Virus record (IMG/VR): IMGVR_UViG_3300030098_005235
Location: 1 to 39,459 of that record
Length of the DNA: 39,459 nt
Reading direction: 5' to 3' (one strand)
From: a virus
Shown: positions 7,023 through 24,838 of the stretch, in pieces
Position numbering within the stretch: the first letter of the stretch is position 1
How the letters are laid out: each line of letters begins with the position of its first letter
Translations under genes and position numbers: made by a program
Notes under the pieces: generated by a model
What the model was told of the DNA's origin: nothing
The model's database searches: none
The model's input: the letters and a program-made list of their open reading frames with translations, nothing else

Positions 7023-7047
7023 GGGAACTCCTGTTGTTGCTGCCCTA

Positions 7048-7076
7048 CATTTAGTTACGGGCAGGTGGATGGTCAA
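7048..7076 (-). promoter_or_regulatory. Predicted sigma-70-like promoter (copy C)
   Basis: Read on the - strand: TTGACC (7076-7071), a 17-base spacer, TAAATG (7053-7048), then TAGGGCAG and the CAACAACAGGAG leader of the 43-aa gene. It is the best of three similar promoters ahead of leftward genes and would drive the unit that includes the ArdC-like protein. Confidence 0.65.
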
Positions 7077-7423
7077 GTCAGGTACAAGGCCAAAGGCGGT
7101 CATAATGTGTCCGCTTCGGCATGAAAGTGGCCCCCAGTCCCTTGACGTGACAACGGTTAGGTCAGGTCAGGGGGACTGTAAATAGGTACGGTTCAACCTG
7201 GATAGTTGGACTCTGTCCTATCTGTCCCTACCTACTCTAAGAAAGTAGGGGGGGGTAGTAATAGAGAGGGAGGGGGGCGCGAGAGGGCCCAGGTAGGGTC
7301 AGGTTTCTTTTCAGAAACAAGGGGGACAGGTAGGGACACCCAGGATATTGCCGGTTGACCCTGGGATATTCAGTGTCCCACAAGGGGGACACGGTGGCCC
7401 CCTGTCCCTTTACTTGTCAAGGG
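7077..7423. other. Gene-free interval with hairpins and GGGGGAC/GTCCC repeats
   Basis: No supportable gene. CCTACT-N7-AGTAGG forms a stem at 7231-7249 and runs into a G-tract. TGTCCCTACCT at 7223-7233 is repeated inverted as AGGTAGGGACA at 7328-7338. GTGTCCC-N6-GGGACAC is a perfect seven-base hairpin at 7373-7392. Stretches of GGGGGAC and CCTGTCCC recur. It could be a regulatory or origin-like region, or the termination zone of the leftward genes at 7424-8754; the sequence does not decide. Confidence 0.5.
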
Positions 7424-7645
7424 TCAGTGGCAGTCAGACCGCCACGGGCCATAGGGCTTGCCGGTTCTGAAGTCGATCTTGCGATACTTGCCAACCTCGC
7501 CAGCGCCATCGCACTCCTGGCAGGTGGCTGCACTGTCGCCGCAACCTGGGTACCAGATTCGGCCGCGACCCTCGCAGGTCTTGCACTCGGTCACCCGCCA
7601 AAGCTGCTTGCCATCGGCGGGGTCGTTGGTGATGAACTCATACAT
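7424..7645 (-). CDS. DnaJ-type double zinc-finger protein, 73 aa
   Basis: Two CxxCxGxG units, CKTCEGRG (residues 21-28) and CQECDGAGE (42-50), form the zinc-binding half-sites characteristic of the DnaJ central domain. No J domain or client-binding domain is present. Short stand-alone proteins of this kind occur in phages and probably use the fold for protein or nucleic-acid contacts. The ATG at 7645 follows CTGGAGCCCACC. The nearly identical leader of the 31-aa gene upstream (GGAGTCCACC) suggests a shared expression signal. Confidence 0.85.
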   Translation of the reverse strand: MYEFITNDPADGKQLWRVTECKTCEGRGRIWYPGCGDSAATCQECDGAGEVGKYRKIDFRTGKPYGPWRSDCH

Positions 7646-7659
7646 GGTGGGCTCCAGGG

Positions 7660-7755
7660 TTAGCGGTTCAGCCAGGTGTCAAAGTCAACATACGGCTGGC
7701 CAAGGTCAATCATGCATCGCACATAGTTGTCGTATCGGTCTTGAAGGGTTCCCAT
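7660..7755 (-). CDS. Very small protein, 31 aa
   Basis: ATG at 7755 after CACCTGGAGTCCACC; encodes MGTLQDRYDNYVRCMIDLG... and ends FDTWLNR. Short, acidic and aromatic-rich, with well-placed start and stop 14 bases before the DnaJ-type gene. The ribosome-binding segment closely matches that of the next gene, which supports translation. Function unknown. Confidence 0.55.
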   Translation of the reverse strand: MGTLQDRYDNYVRCMIDLGQPYVDFDTWLNR

Positions 7756-8275
7756 GGTGGACTCCAGGTGTAAAGGTTTCTTGACGTTGAGGTAAGGTTC
7801 TCTTGACGCCGCGCCCCTCGCTCGCCCCGTTCTCAGGGGATGCCGCATCTGGCGATATGCCAGGGGCAAGGCGGGATATGCGCGACTCAGAATCGGTAGT
7901 TCGGGGCTGCCTGTGGGTCATGGGCTGGGCCGAATCCGGCGGTGCCTGACCTCGATGGGGCTGCCTTTGCCCCACCCGCTGGCCGATACCCCAGGGGGAA
8001 CCGGCACAACGGGGGAGCGGTGAGGGTTGATGATATGCTGCGGGGCAGCCGGGGTAGACTCGCCTCAACGGCTGGGCTCAACCCCTCCCTGTACACAGGG
8101 GGAACCCAGCCGGAGGCTATGTTCGGAGATGGGACCGGGGGAAAGCCCCCGGCCCCCCCGTTAGATCGCCTGTGCAGTTCCGCGCAAGGGGAACAAGGCA
8201 GGGCCGCCTGGGTTTGCACGCCGGGGGCCATACGATCTGACGGGTTGCGGCGGGGGATACGCTCCCCCGGGGCGG
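7756..8275. other. Gene-free, GC-rich stem-loop region (left part)
   Basis: Reading frames are open by GC richness on both strands, but none has a ribosome-binding site or protein-like composition. Perfect stems include GGGGC-N7-GCCCC (7957-7973), GCTGC-GGG-GCAGC (8037-8049), nested CTGGG/CCCAG around CCCTGT-AC-ACAGGG (8072-8109), and CCGGGGG-AAAG-CCCCCGG (8135-8152). Together with 8755-9574 this is the most structured part of the window. Confidence 0.6.
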
Positions 8276-8596
8276 TTAGTTGGCGTGGAAGGTGATGAGG
8301 TAGCTGGCGTAGTCCTCGGCGTGCATGTTGTGCTTTTTGGCAAGGGCGAAGACCTGATTTCGGTAGGTCTCGCTGCCCATGTCAGCGAGCATCCCCTGGC
8401 TGGAGAGTTCGTCGTACCCCCCGCCATCGAAGACGAGGGCCACGCACTTGCCGTAGCCGAGGCTCTCACTCTTGGCCGTGTCCCACACGACGGTGTCGGA
8501 GAACGATGCGTACTTGGGTCCGCAGAGTTCGATGGACTCCTCGCGGAACTTGCGGACCAGGGCCTGGAGGTCTGTGATGAATCGCTTGGCGCTCAT
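8276..8596 (-). CDS. Hypothetical phage protein, 106 aa
   Basis: Not recognised. Begins MSAKRFITDLQALVRKF, with a charged N-terminal helix, then a Gly-rich turn (FDGGGYDELSS) and a helical C-terminus. The start at 8596 overlaps the stop of the 53-aa upstream gene as ATGA and has only a weak GGGGTGG site, so it is probably translated by re-initiation. It is the last gene before a long stem-loop region. Confidence 0.75.
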   Translation of the reverse strand: MSAKRFITDLQALVRKFREESIELCGPKYASFSDTVVWDTAKSESLGYGKCVALVFDGGGYDELSSQGMLADMGSETYRNQVFALAKKHNMHAEDYASYLITFHAN

Positions 8597-8754
8597 ACTG
8601 CCACCCCGCACGCAGCGAGGAACCGCTTTGAGTCGAATCGTGGGTTGGTCTGGCGGAGCGTGCCACACCAGTCGCGGGCGGCTTCCCGCCGGGCGACCGG
8701 GTTGGTGATGAGGGCGATGGTTTGGGCGATGAGTTTGAAGTGCTTGCGGGTCAT
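8593..8754 (-). CDS. Small conserved phage-type protein, 53 aa
   Basis: Encodes MTRKHFKLIAQTIALI..., ending TNPRFDSKRFLAACGVAV. From memory, many phage and bacterial hypothetical proteins share this pattern: an N-terminal (K/R)xFxxIAxTI helix and a C-terminal (A/T)TNPRFDxxRFLxACG. No function is known to me. ATG at 8754 follows AACAGGAGTCAGC. The stop overlaps the next start as ATGA. This is the first leftward gene of the window's divergent region. Confidence 0.85.
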   Translation of the reverse strand: MTRKHFKLIAQTIALITNPVARREAARDWCGTLRQTNPRFDSKRFLAACGVAV

Positions 8755-9574
8755 GCTGACTCCTGTTGGTTTCGGCCCTGCTGGGCCTGGCTACTGCCAC
8801 CGCTTGCGCGGTCATCAGGGGGCGAGCATCACGCCCCGACCAATCGTGCCCCCCCCCGCTGGGGGGGTGTTCATCCCCCTGACGCCATGGCATCAGGGGG
8901 GCCCACCATGAGGAGGTGGGTGGCCTGCCTTCCCGTCTATTCAAGTCCACCGGGAAACTATGGACCACAGATGACTCAGTACATCGGAGAGCCGGGCCGT
9001 TCCTCTGGCGCAGGGGGCAAGCCCCCCACTCTGTCACCAGAGCAGTGTCATGGATAGGTCCGTGGCTCAGGTACCGTCCACCGTCTGCGGCACACCTGCG
9101 TGCTCCGGGTCCATCGCTTGCGGCCCCATGGGGCTCGCGGAATGGTCGTGCACTACGGCTGCGTGGCTCAAGTGGGCTCGGCTCGCCCCTGTATAGGGGG
9201 TCATCGCCTCGCTGTCGTACCCTGCTGTGGGTTGCTATCCATGTCCTTCATCCCACCTCGACCGTTTCGGGCTGACTACTCTGCCTGGTGTTCTCGGGGT
9301 TGCCCCGAACGCTGCCAGGCGTTTCGCCTCCCGGGGGTTCCCCCGGTGTCGATGGGTCGCAATCGCGATTCCAGAGAGCGGGTCGGGGCTCGGTGCCGCC
9401 GACGATGAGAATCTGGACACTGGCTGCCCAGCGGCAACCCCCCCATAGCAAAATAAAGTGAAGAAAGTCCGTAAGTGTGCGGAATCATTAAGGAAAAGAT
9501 TTTCATTTTGTTTGTTGGGCAGAAAGTTAGGCAAGAGGGGTTGCCGCCATGCCATCGGTGCACAAGTTCTTCGC
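8755..9574. other. Gene-free, GC-rich stem-loop region (right part)
   Basis: No convincing gene. Perfect or near-perfect stems: CCCCCCC-GCT-GGGGGGG (8851-8867); CCCCCTGA/TCAGGGGG with inner GCCATGGC (8875-8900); CTCTGG/CCAGAG enclosing GGGGGCAAGCCCCC (9003-9042); palindrome GCCCCATGGGGC (9123-9134); CCCCT-GTAT-AGGGG (9186-9199); GCCTGG/CCAGGC around TCGGGG-TTG-CCCCGA (9283-9320); CCGGGGG-TT-CCCCCGG (9331-9346); palindrome AATCGCGATT (9361-9370). The interval divides leftward from rightward genes, so it is a natural place for an origin, divergent promoters or structured RNA. Confidence 0.6.
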
Positions 9575-10024
9575 ATGCACGCAGTCCTTGCCTTCTCGAA
9601 CCGCACCGCAGCCGACCCCCGGCAGCGGGCCCGGTGTGTTCGCACCGGACGGTTCGTGGCCTGGTCCCGCGCTGCTGCTCTCCGCCTCCCCGGTGCTCCG
9701 GCGGTGGTGGTCCTGACCCCGGCCCCCGTGGCTCAGGTCGAGACCCCCGCCCCCTCCCCGGTGGTGGTGGTGGCCGATGCCCCCGCCCTGGTGGTGGTGG
9801 CTGAGGCTTCTCCTCTCCGCGCGCGCGTGTCCCGCGTGGCCTCCGGCTTCAGCCGGTGGGGCCGCCGGGTGGCTGCTGCTGCTGCGGTGGTGGTGGCCAC
9901 TGCCCTGGGCACGGTGCCCGGTGCCAGCCAGGCCGACCAGGTCGACCAGGTCGCAGCCCTCGCCCAGCGCGGGAACCAGGCGGATCGCGAGGCGACCCCC
10001 CTCCACCGGAGGTGGACCATGTGA
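9575..10024 (+). CDS. Possible Ala/Val/Pro-rich protein with one membrane-like segment, 149 aa
   Basis: Beginning MHAVLAFSNRTAADPRQRAR, this frame has third codon positions that are nearly all G or C over 130 codons, unlike the other five frames. It encodes RCVRTGRFVAWSRAAALR, repeated VVVV-type runs with prolines, and a hydrophobic stretch AAAAAVVVATALGTVPG. No SD precedes the ATG. A better site (AAGAGGGGTTGCCGCC) fits an ATG at 9549 in another frame that stops at 9717. A frameshift, a different start, or no gene at all are possible. Confidence 0.4.
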   Translation: MHAVLAFSNRTAADPRQRARCVRTGRFVAWSRAAALRLPGAPAVVVLTPAPVAQVETPAPSPVVVVADAPALVVVAEASPLRARVSRVASGFSRWGRRVAAAAAVVVATALGTVPGASQADQVDQVAALAQRGNQADREATPLHRRWTM

Positions 10025-12688: not shown

Positions 12689-12740
12689 GGTTTGGTGCAT
12701 AGAATGGTCTTGAGGCGTCATGTCCTCATTCTGTTGTTGT

Positions 12741-12778
12741 GGTCCGCTGGCTTTCGTAGCTGGCGGACCATTTTTTTT
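12741..12778 (+). terminator. Strong intrinsic terminator
   Basis: GGTCCGC pairs with GCGGACC around a partly paired loop containing TTTCG, and is followed by ATTTTTTTT. It lies 52 bases after the exported-protein gene and closes the first rightward operon. Confidence 0.92.
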
Positions 12779-12783
12779 GTTAT

Positions 12784-12812
12784 TTGACTGTGATGGTCGA
12801 AATAAGTAGTGT
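12784..12812 (+). promoter_or_regulatory. Candidate late-operon promoter
   Basis: TTGACT (12784-12789), a 17-base spacer and TAGTGT directly after the terminator. The -35 is identical to that of leftward promoter copy B, but the -10 match is poor. It would give a leader of about 175 bases that contains the second hairpin at 12894-12925. The rest of 12813-12994 holds no gene. Confidence 0.35.
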
Positions 12813-12893
12813 GATTTGGCCTGTGGTCGATTTTACAGTCCCCATTGCAGTATTTTTGGCTATAGGAAGGTCAAGTTGTTGATCTATGCTCGA

Positions 12894-12925
12894 CCTCTGG
12901 GGGTGTTGAACCTCCAGAGGTTTTT
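12894..12925 (+). terminator. Second intrinsic terminator or attenuator
   Basis: CCTCTGGGGG pairs with CCTCCAGAGG (one G-T pair) around TGTTGAA, followed by TTTTT. It is either a tandem back-up for the terminator at 12741 or, if transcription starts at 12784-12812, a leader terminator ahead of the 12995 gene. Confidence 0.8.
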
Positions 12926-17735: not shown

Positions 17736-17929
17736 GGCTTCTTGGTCTTCTTCCACTCTTTGTGGAACAAGTCAGTCATATCCACGAGATACTTTGCTTT
17801 TTCATCGCGAGATGAAAGCTGTACATGATCGTTGAGTTTCTGGCCTTCCTTGGCCATTGACTCAACAATCGTGCTGTGTGGAATGCAATCTGGAGTGCTC
17901 TTATCTGTGCTGTTGTTCTGTGTAGACAT
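17732..17929 (-). CDS. Lone leftward small protein, 65 aa
   Basis: The only leftward gene I accept right of 8.8 kb. Encodes MSTQNNSTDKSTPDC... and ends FHKEWKKTKKP, with charged helices in between. No SD precedes the ATG. A TTGACC, 17 bases, TACCAT pair on the - strand just upstream would give a nearly leaderless message. The frame fills the gap between SSB and the packaging genes exactly, with a stop overlapping the SSB stop. Not recognised; moderate confidence. Confidence 0.55.
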   Translation of the reverse strand: MSTQNNSTDKSTPDCIPHSTIVESMAKEGQKLNDHVQLSSRDEKAKYLVDMTDLFHKEWKKTKKP

Positions 17930-23830: not shown

Positions 23831-24838
23831 ATGGATTCAACAACACAGATTGCTGACGAAGCGGCTGCTGCACCAGGGGACGGTGCAGTTCAGGCTGCTG
23901 ACTTGGCGGGGTTGGTCGATATTGAACCGACCGCAGCAGACGCGGAGCAGGTTGCGGCACAACCTGAAGCTGAAGTTCCGTCTATCGAGGTTGAGCCTCC
24001 GGCTGTCGAGCCGGAAGTTGAGGCATCGGCACCAGCGGAAATTAGTGAGGATGTTTTTAACCCCCTCACGTCTGTCCTTGGTGACATTGAGGAGCTTGAG
24101 ACCGACAAGTTCTACGACAACATCACGGAAGACGACATCAAGGAGCTTCCGACTGTTGCGCGTCGAATGCTTCACAACTTCCGTCTTGCTTACGAGATTG
24201 AGAAGTCGAAGCTTGGTCACTCTACCAATGCATCTGAAACCAAGCTGGCGGAGAGAGAGCTTGAGCTTCAGAAGATGGAGCGTGACTTTGCTCGCCGTCA
24301 AGCGGAGTTCAGTGCGCTGGCGAATGATCCAAAGGTTCAGGAAGTTCTGAACACGCCAGAGGGTGAGCTTCCAGACATTCTTAGTGAAGAGGGCATTCAG
24401 GCACGCATCCAGAAAGGCATTGCCGAGGGGATGCGAAATGTTCTCTCCCCAATGCAGCAGGCGTCTGCCCAACATGCCAAGCAAACAGCTTATCTTGAGT
24501 TTTTGGAGTCCCATCCAGAGCTTAAGCAGCCCAGCTTCAAAAATGAAGTGTCAGCCCTTGTACAGGGTCGACGCGGGACTGATGCACCGATTTCAACAGA
24601 GGATGCGTACCAGATTGTGAAGGCGCGTCGAGTTCTTGCTGAGCAAAATGCTCGCATTGAGTCTGAGCGCCGTGCTCGTGCTCAATCTGCTCGACGTGTT
24701 AGTAAGCAATCTATGAGCAGCGCTCCTGGTGTTGAGGACATTCCTGTAAACGTCAAGAAGCGTGGCGCTCATGCTATTGCCAATTGGCTACAGTCAAACC
24801 CGGAAGCCGCAAAGAGAATTGCGGGTGAAGTTCGCTAA
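23831..24838 (+). CDS. Scaffold-like capsid assembly protein, 335 aa
   Basis: The classic layout just before the major capsid gene. A strongly acidic, Ala/Pro-rich N-terminus (about 1-75) comes first. A helical middle with charged heptads follows (ERELELQKMERDFARRQAEF). The C-terminal helical part is basic (RRARAQSARRVSKQS, then WLQSNPEAAKRIAGEVR), as expected for a scaffold that binds coat protein. No catalytic motif is visible, so it is not obviously a protease. Start at 23831 (MDSTTQIADEA) with weak GGAG/AAGAG signals. A 62-base gap precedes it, with no clear promoter. Confidence 0.72.
   Translation: MDSTTQIADEAAAAPGDGAVQAADLAGLVDIEPTAADAEQVAAQPEAEVPSIEVEPPAVEPEVEASAPAEISEDVFNPLTSVLGDIEELETDKFYDNITEDDIKELPTVARRMLHNFRLAYEIEKSKLGHSTNASETKLAERELELQKMERDFARRQAEFSALANDPKVQEVLNTPEGELPDILSEEGIQARIQKGIAEGMRNVLSPMQQASAQHAKQTAYLEFLESHPELKQPSFKNEVSALVQGRRGTDAPISTEDAYQIVKARRVLAEQNARIESERRARAQSARRVSKQSMSSAPGVEDIPVNVKKRGAHAIANWLQSNPEAAKRIAGEVR

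Follow-up and report, generated by a model that had tools for sequence, protein, structure and literature searches.

Comparative evidence for a leftward-oriented structured RNA locus with a variant hammerhead ribozyme in a family of uncultivated phages

The stem-rich intervals at 7756-8275 (field 1) and 8755-9430 (field 2) of the window, the 39,459-nucleotide stretch of viral DNA analysed here, are on comparative grounds parts of a leftward-oriented, non-coding, structured RNA locus, which lies at the same divergent point in 13 phages and is probably transcribed into a long folded leftward RNA. Within field 2, one element on the minus strand is, judged by its core, its helices and its covariation, a hammerhead ribozyme with an unusual junction. 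We consider it reasonably probable that the locus is the leader of a leftward transcript that cuts itself into a structured RNA and a downstream mRNA, with antitermination probable and cleavage predicted. The original prediction, of a dense field of stem-loops that might be an origin, a structured RNA or a regulatory hub, named neither the ribozyme nor the strand, the boxA-like motif or the union of the two fields in relatives; of the roles that it offered, structured RNA is borne out by two covarying minus-strand elements in a non-coding locus, while no signal of an origin was found.

The window is almost identical to part of a 74,963-base IMG/VR contig (99.9% over 11.2 kb). The GenBank phage collection holds no DNA match to it, and its terminase is less than 30% identical by protein to those of GenBank phages among the best matches listed. 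Scanning IMG/VR for the terminase yielded 53 loci, and parts of the region proved to be conserved when 50 relative records were searched by DNA. With the gene at the divergent point as anchor, the equivalent place was inspected in 20 phages, and 13 of them have a G+C-rich interval there, mostly without a credible ORF for about 1.5 kb; conservation in relatives is clear. Bacterial genomes, searched for a host, gave no match to the hammerhead pattern and no terminase relative.

Comparison also indicates that the interval evolves as non-coding sequence. The mismatches are evenly spread over codon phase in seven interval comparisons (p 0.37-0.88) and most gaps break frame, while control genes of the same phages are strongly phased (ardC-like gene, p = 2e-6; terminase, p = 1e-35), which agrees with the earlier remark that there is hardly any coding signal. 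Hidden genes were rejected as an explanation: the region does contain long stop-free frames, because of its high G+C, but its substitutions lack codon phase. The genes around the two fields are the following.

8593..8754, minus strand: first leftward gene, 53 aa, with the Shine-Dalgarno sequence AGGAG directly after ribozyme stem III
8276..8596, minus strand: second leftward gene, 106 aa, overlapping the first by ATGA
7660..7755, minus strand: next leftward gene, 31 aa, after field 1
9575..10024, plus strand: first rightward gene, which marks the divergent point

Pfam gave no match for the products of 8593-8754 and 8276-8596, and the latter has no relative outside the near-identical contig. 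The product of 9575-10024, a small protein without an assigned family, has an N-terminus (AFSN..A..RQRARC..TGRFVAW) conserved in the phage family, and a variable tail. A 73-aa protein with two CXXC pairs, encoded at 7424-7645 on the minus strand, weakly resembles the DnaJ central domain, with a Pfam score under the cut-off. Field 2 lies between leftward and rightward genes, as had been described, but field 1 lies inside the leftward block, between the genes at 8276-8596 and 7660-7755. Small genes separate the pieces of the locus in the window, G003 and G046, and in the window it is the genes at 8276-8754 that split field 2 from field 1. In G004, G018, G021 and G023 the homologues of the two fields are contiguous, with no intervening gene, and fields 1 and 2 are therefore taken as one locus.

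Perfect stems with a loop of 3-12 nt and 6 bp or more per arm were counted against dinucleotide shuffles. There are 10 in 8755-9430, where 2.1 are expected (p = 0.003), and 3 in 7756-8275, where 2.15 are expected (p = 0.35); the stems are present as they had been placed, but they are in excess in field 2 and not above chance in field 1. One C9/G7 run accounts for five of the 10 as overlapping registers, which leaves about six distinct stems, and no iterated repeat family runs across both fields, in keeping with the statement that the stems are not copies of one element. The stability of folding, set against shuffled sequence, depends on the strand. On the minus (leftward) strand the z-scores are -3.65 for 7756-8275 and -2.99 for 8766-9450, but on the plus (rightward) strand they are only -0.61 and -1.41. 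Given this leftward-only excess and the chance-level count in field 1, the claim of density is partly right, and the strand is the useful clue. Fold z-scores of 120-nt windows are uninformative for the region (plus-strand mean -0.39, equal to that of the whole window, with no outlier); the only such windows with a z-score below -4 are at 12701-12920, 17801-17920 and 24601-24720, outside the locus. With 60-72% G+C over most of its length, the region exceeds the 55.6% of the window as a whole.

Rfam returned no known RNA besides a sub-threshold hammerhead in the window and the relatives scanned, and its weak matches to miRNA, snoRNA and lncRNA families were set aside as chance in G+C-rich sequence. 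No tRNA or tmRNA was found in the window; ARAGORN gave one tRNA-Thr, in G012, outside the conserved interval. The parts of the hammerhead, all on the minus strand, are as follows.

8764..8845, minus strand: type III hammerhead ribozyme (Rfam RF00008 below cut-off, covariation, model R1, fold)
8845-8839 with 8770-8764, minus strand: stem III, 5 pairs
after C8838, minus strand: predicted cut, from the hammerhead layout
8837-8819, minus strand: stem I
8818-8812, minus strand: CUGAUGA core
8811-8788, minus strand: two inserted hairpins, CCGCGCAAGCGG and TGGCAGTAGCCA, between core and stem II
8787-8774, minus strand: stem II
8773-8771, minus strand: GAA core

Read by hand, the window RNA is 5'-GATTGGT C / GGGGCG TGATGCT CGCCCC CTGATGA (two hairpins) GGCCC AGCA GGGCC GAA ACCAACA-3', the slash marking the predicted cut. 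The RF00008 score on the minus strand at 8764-8845 is 22.9 bits against a cut-off of 48.5, the best relative reaching 32.9. Thirteen copies were laid out helix by helix, 12 of them checked letter by letter and the thirteenth set from its sequence, and all 13 have CUGANGA, GAA, the A15.1-U16.1 pair and H17 before stem I. Covariation over these copies supports three helices and an open end at stem III: in the nine copies within the phage family, two-sided changes occur in 11 of 19 pairs, and 164 of 171 cells are paired, where the maximum in 2000 shuffles is 142. In alignment A4, 95.3% of cells are paired, against at most 50% when the partners are slid. A loop-loop pseudoknot is likely: loops I and II could pair over 3 nt, with one compensatory change (GCU/AGC to GCC/GGC). 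The pairing resembles the pseudoknots described by Perreault et al. (PMC3088659). Model R1, built without the copies of the window, G018 and G035, scored these left-out copies at 47.3 bits (E 4.9e-13), 50.9 and 36, respectively, and it also found a third copy in G053, a contig reached by the hammerhead pattern.

The window copy is classed as a variant because its stem II does not sit directly on the core, which departs from the hammerhead consensus. The gap after A9 is 24 nt in the window and 14 nt in G018, against 1 nt in most of the other copies and none in G035. The 24-nt insertion of two hairpins is absent from G003 and G046; in G018 a single hairpin occupies this junction. Stems I, II and III persist around the insertion when the window copy is folded to minimum energy. 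Natural insertions in the core lower the activity of some hammerheads and are tolerated in others (PMC3088659), and the window ribozyme, with its 24 extra nucleotides, may be slow or dead.

Hammerheads are found in seven of the 13 related uncultivated phages with the locus and are missing from six, and self-cleavage would therefore not be universal among the 13. G004 has two, at 73095-73153 and 68038-68098, one before a small gene and the other directly before module B (described below). In locus L133 (IMGVR_UViG_3300012940_000043, G053) three hammerheads of the same make lie within 1.3 kb (38894-40177), two of them flanking a gene, and in locus L109 (G023) stem II and GAAAC are repeated directly after the hammerhead (about 2460-2530), like a partial duplication of the ribozyme.

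The position of the ribozyme bears on a rival explanation, plain mRNA processing, by which the hammerhead does no more than trim leftward messages at their 5' ends, and the other stems are leader that plays no part as a separate RNA. We think this rather unlikely. It fits the window, G003, G046 and one copy in G004, where the ribozyme lies just before a Shine-Dalgarno sequence and a start codon, and a role in processing transcripts has already been proposed for phage hammerheads, one of which lies 13 nt before a helicase gene (PMC3088659). It does not account for G018, G021, G023 and the second copy in G004, where the ribozyme is followed by module B and not by a gene, nor for the conservation of module B and the 5' domains, which are themselves non-coding.

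At its 5' edge the locus has four further features.

9441..9574, minus strand: A+T-richer stretch, presumed leftward promoter region, from position and composition only
9382..9403, minus strand: short hairpin GTCGG...CCGAC, from folding, just before the boxA-like motif
9367..9380, minus strand: degraded boxA-like motif CGCTCTCTGGAATC, from motif comparison with relatives
8846..9366, minus strand: type-alpha structured 5' domain, aligned with G003 and G046

The G+C content is 46% at 9401-9520, and no sigma-70-like promoter or terminator above chance was found in the region. Hairpins similar to that at 9382..9403 precede the boxA-like motif in most relatives. The pattern [CT]TCTTTNA[AC]ATC is present as a single copy per phage in 10 of the 13, at the 5' edge and in the leftward direction only; these copies match the gamma-proteobacterial boxA consensus GYTCTTTAANA (PMC5725501) except at position 8, and the window copy has three mismatches. 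Compared with the family form CTCTTTGACATC, the window sequence CGCTCTCTGGAATC matches at 9 of 12 positions, and G003, with CGCTCCTTGACACC at the equivalent place, is degraded too.

The 5' domain that follows is about 500-900 nt long across the phages and falls into five sequence types that can hardly be aligned with one another; a search for sequence common to the five gave only boxA, the hammerhead, module B and some short motifs on the 3' side. The type-alpha domain of the window is best kept in a core at 9186-9236 (AGCAACCCACAGCAGGGTACGACAGCGAGGCGATGACCCCC...GGGG), shows no codon phase and has frame-breaking gaps in 15 of 19 cases. For four of the types, the alignment within the type folds more stably than its column-shuffled controls (z -4.7 to -6.1 leftward), but in two of these, beta and delta, the opposite strand does as well or better, and the strand of the 5' domain is accordingly assigned from the ribozyme, module B and boxA.

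In 10 of the 13 phages the locus carries, at its 5' edge and leftward only, a hairpin followed by a boxA-like motif, and it lies at the head of a leftward operon, which would also suit a cis-acting antitermination leader. The whole structured stretch would then act mainly on RNA polymerase, modifying it as nut, put or rrn leaders do, before being removed by the ribozyme. This seems unlikely to us, since the locus is far longer than known leaders of that kind, the motif is degraded in the window and G003, and the 5' domains share hardly any sequence across types.

On the 3' side of the ribozyme there are several smaller elements.

8246..8275, minus strand: module A, hairpin CCGGGGGAGCGTATCCCCC at 8270-8252 with CGCC/GCC flanks, shared with relatives
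8135..8152, minus strand: perfect hairpin CCGGGGGCTTTCCCCCGG, from the stem count
8057..8122, minus strand: module B, invariant CATAGC and an 18-pair covarying stem-loop (covariation, model R2)
7812..8053, minus strand: 3' domain, non-coding, 87% identical to G003 over 242 nt

Module A is present in six phages (G003, G046, G015, G016, G012 and the window), with a varying stem and a constant loop region, and it occupies the corresponding stretch in most of the six phages that lack a hammerhead. G023 has a hairpin like CCGGGGGCTTTCCCCCGG before module B. Module B itself is recovered by model R2 exactly once each in 12 of the 13 phages (two of which, G013 and G014, were outside the training set of the model) and in none of 41 other records; 92% of its cells are paired, with two-sided changes in 7 of 18 pairs. 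Compensatory changes in relatives are thus present in both the hammerhead and the module B stem-loop. A short motif around TATCGCGTGGCCG lies 3' of module B in G004, G012, G018, G021 and G023, and in a looser form in G015; it could be a further small RNA element. Further left, the stretch at 7028-7424 shares 81% identity with G003, for the most part lacks a plausible gene, and carries repeated CCTACCTGTCCC-type motifs.

In G003 a small ORF separates module B from the 3' domain; the window retains, at about 8027-8058, only what appears to be the end of this ORF, as if the gene had been deleted and the RNA modules kept. This apparent scar, the 24-nt insertion in the ribozyme junction and the degraded boxA-like motif could all be signs of a decaying copy that is losing its function in the window phage. 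Such decay is quite improbable in our view: the window ribozyme has lost none of its core nucleotides and none of its three stems, G018 likewise has a junction hairpin and yet keeps its stems, and preservation of module B and of the 3' domain is good. A replication origin or other DNA-level site, which the intergenic place between divergent blocks and the high G+C with inverted repeats might recall, is extremely improbable, given that the GC skew is positive throughout the region with no inflection (as profiled on the 39-kb fragment of a genome of about 75 kb), that no iterons or iterated initiator sites were found across the fields, and that compensatory changes and a ribozyme core indicate RNA.

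The reading as a self-cutting leader would work as follows. We infer that a promoter near 9441-9574 starts a long untranslated leftward RNA, and that RNA polymerase would pass through the long untranslated stretch with the aid of the boxA-like element close to the 5' end of this RNA. The RNA would fold into the type-specific 5' domain, of about 520 nt in the window; the hammerhead at 8845-8764 on the minus strand would cut after C8838, freeing this domain as a separate structured RNA. The message downstream would thereby acquire a new 5' end, some 80 nt ahead of its first start codon. Modules A and B and the 3' domain would be further structured pieces among the small downstream genes. The leftward orientation is common to the fold z-scores, the ribozyme, module B and the boxA-like motif. 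Against the leader reading it must be said that no sigma-70 promoter was found, that the boxA-like motif is degraded in the window and departs at position 8 from the published consensus, that the window ribozyme carries 24 nt inserted at the stem II junction, that six of the 13 phages have no hammerhead, and that the 5' domain alignments of types beta and delta do not favour the leftward strand.

The core (CUGANGA...GAA, A15.1-U16.1, a predicted cut after C), the three helices and the loop I-loop II pairing liken the ribozyme to the type III hammerhead (RF00008; phage hammerheads, Perreault et al., 2011, PMC3088659), from which it differs in its sub-cut-off RF00008 score and in the extra base or hairpin(s) between A9 and stem II. 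Like the published phage hammerheads (PMC3088659) it can lie just before a phage gene; unlike them, in some relatives it is followed by an RNA module instead. The 5' edge resembles rRNA-type leaders with boxA in having a hairpin and then GYTCTTTNANA (the boxB-boxA order) at the start of a long untranslated structured RNA (PMC5725501, PMC10250234). It differs in that position 8 of the phage motif is G, C or T against A in the consensus, that no rRNA lies downstream, and that the window motif is degraded. GOLLD and ROOL are likewise large structured phage RNAs of unknown function, and GOLLD, too, combines a constant 3' region with a 5' region that varies (PMC12286853). In contrast to them, the window locus is not beside tRNA genes, carries a hammerhead, and lies at the divergent point of early-looking gene blocks, and the Rfam covariance models for GOLLD and ROOL gave no match in the window or the relatives scanned.

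Phage hammerheads before genes are already known (PMC3088659). The literature search, mostly without subscription journals, found no description of the locus; its coverage leaves novelty unproven, and we regard the locus as likely to be new. Few large structured RNAs are known from phages, and most of them have no known function. Here a known ribozyme occupies a defined point within a long RNA that lacks annotation, in a family without a DNA match among GenBank phages, and since the ribozyme predicts an exact RNA end the locus is directly testable. Tentatively, the locus could represent a novel class of large RNA in phages: a leftward transcript that starts with a boxA-like element, carries one of at least five exchangeable types of 5' domain and a shared module B, has the 3' end of the freed RNA set by a hammerhead in part of the family, and acts in trans during infection, together with a hammerhead that tolerates extra helices at the stem II junction. 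Such junction insertions would widen the range tolerated by the hammerhead fold. The combination of a constant frame with exchangeable 5' domains suggests a phage RNA that is under diversifying selection or recombines frequently.
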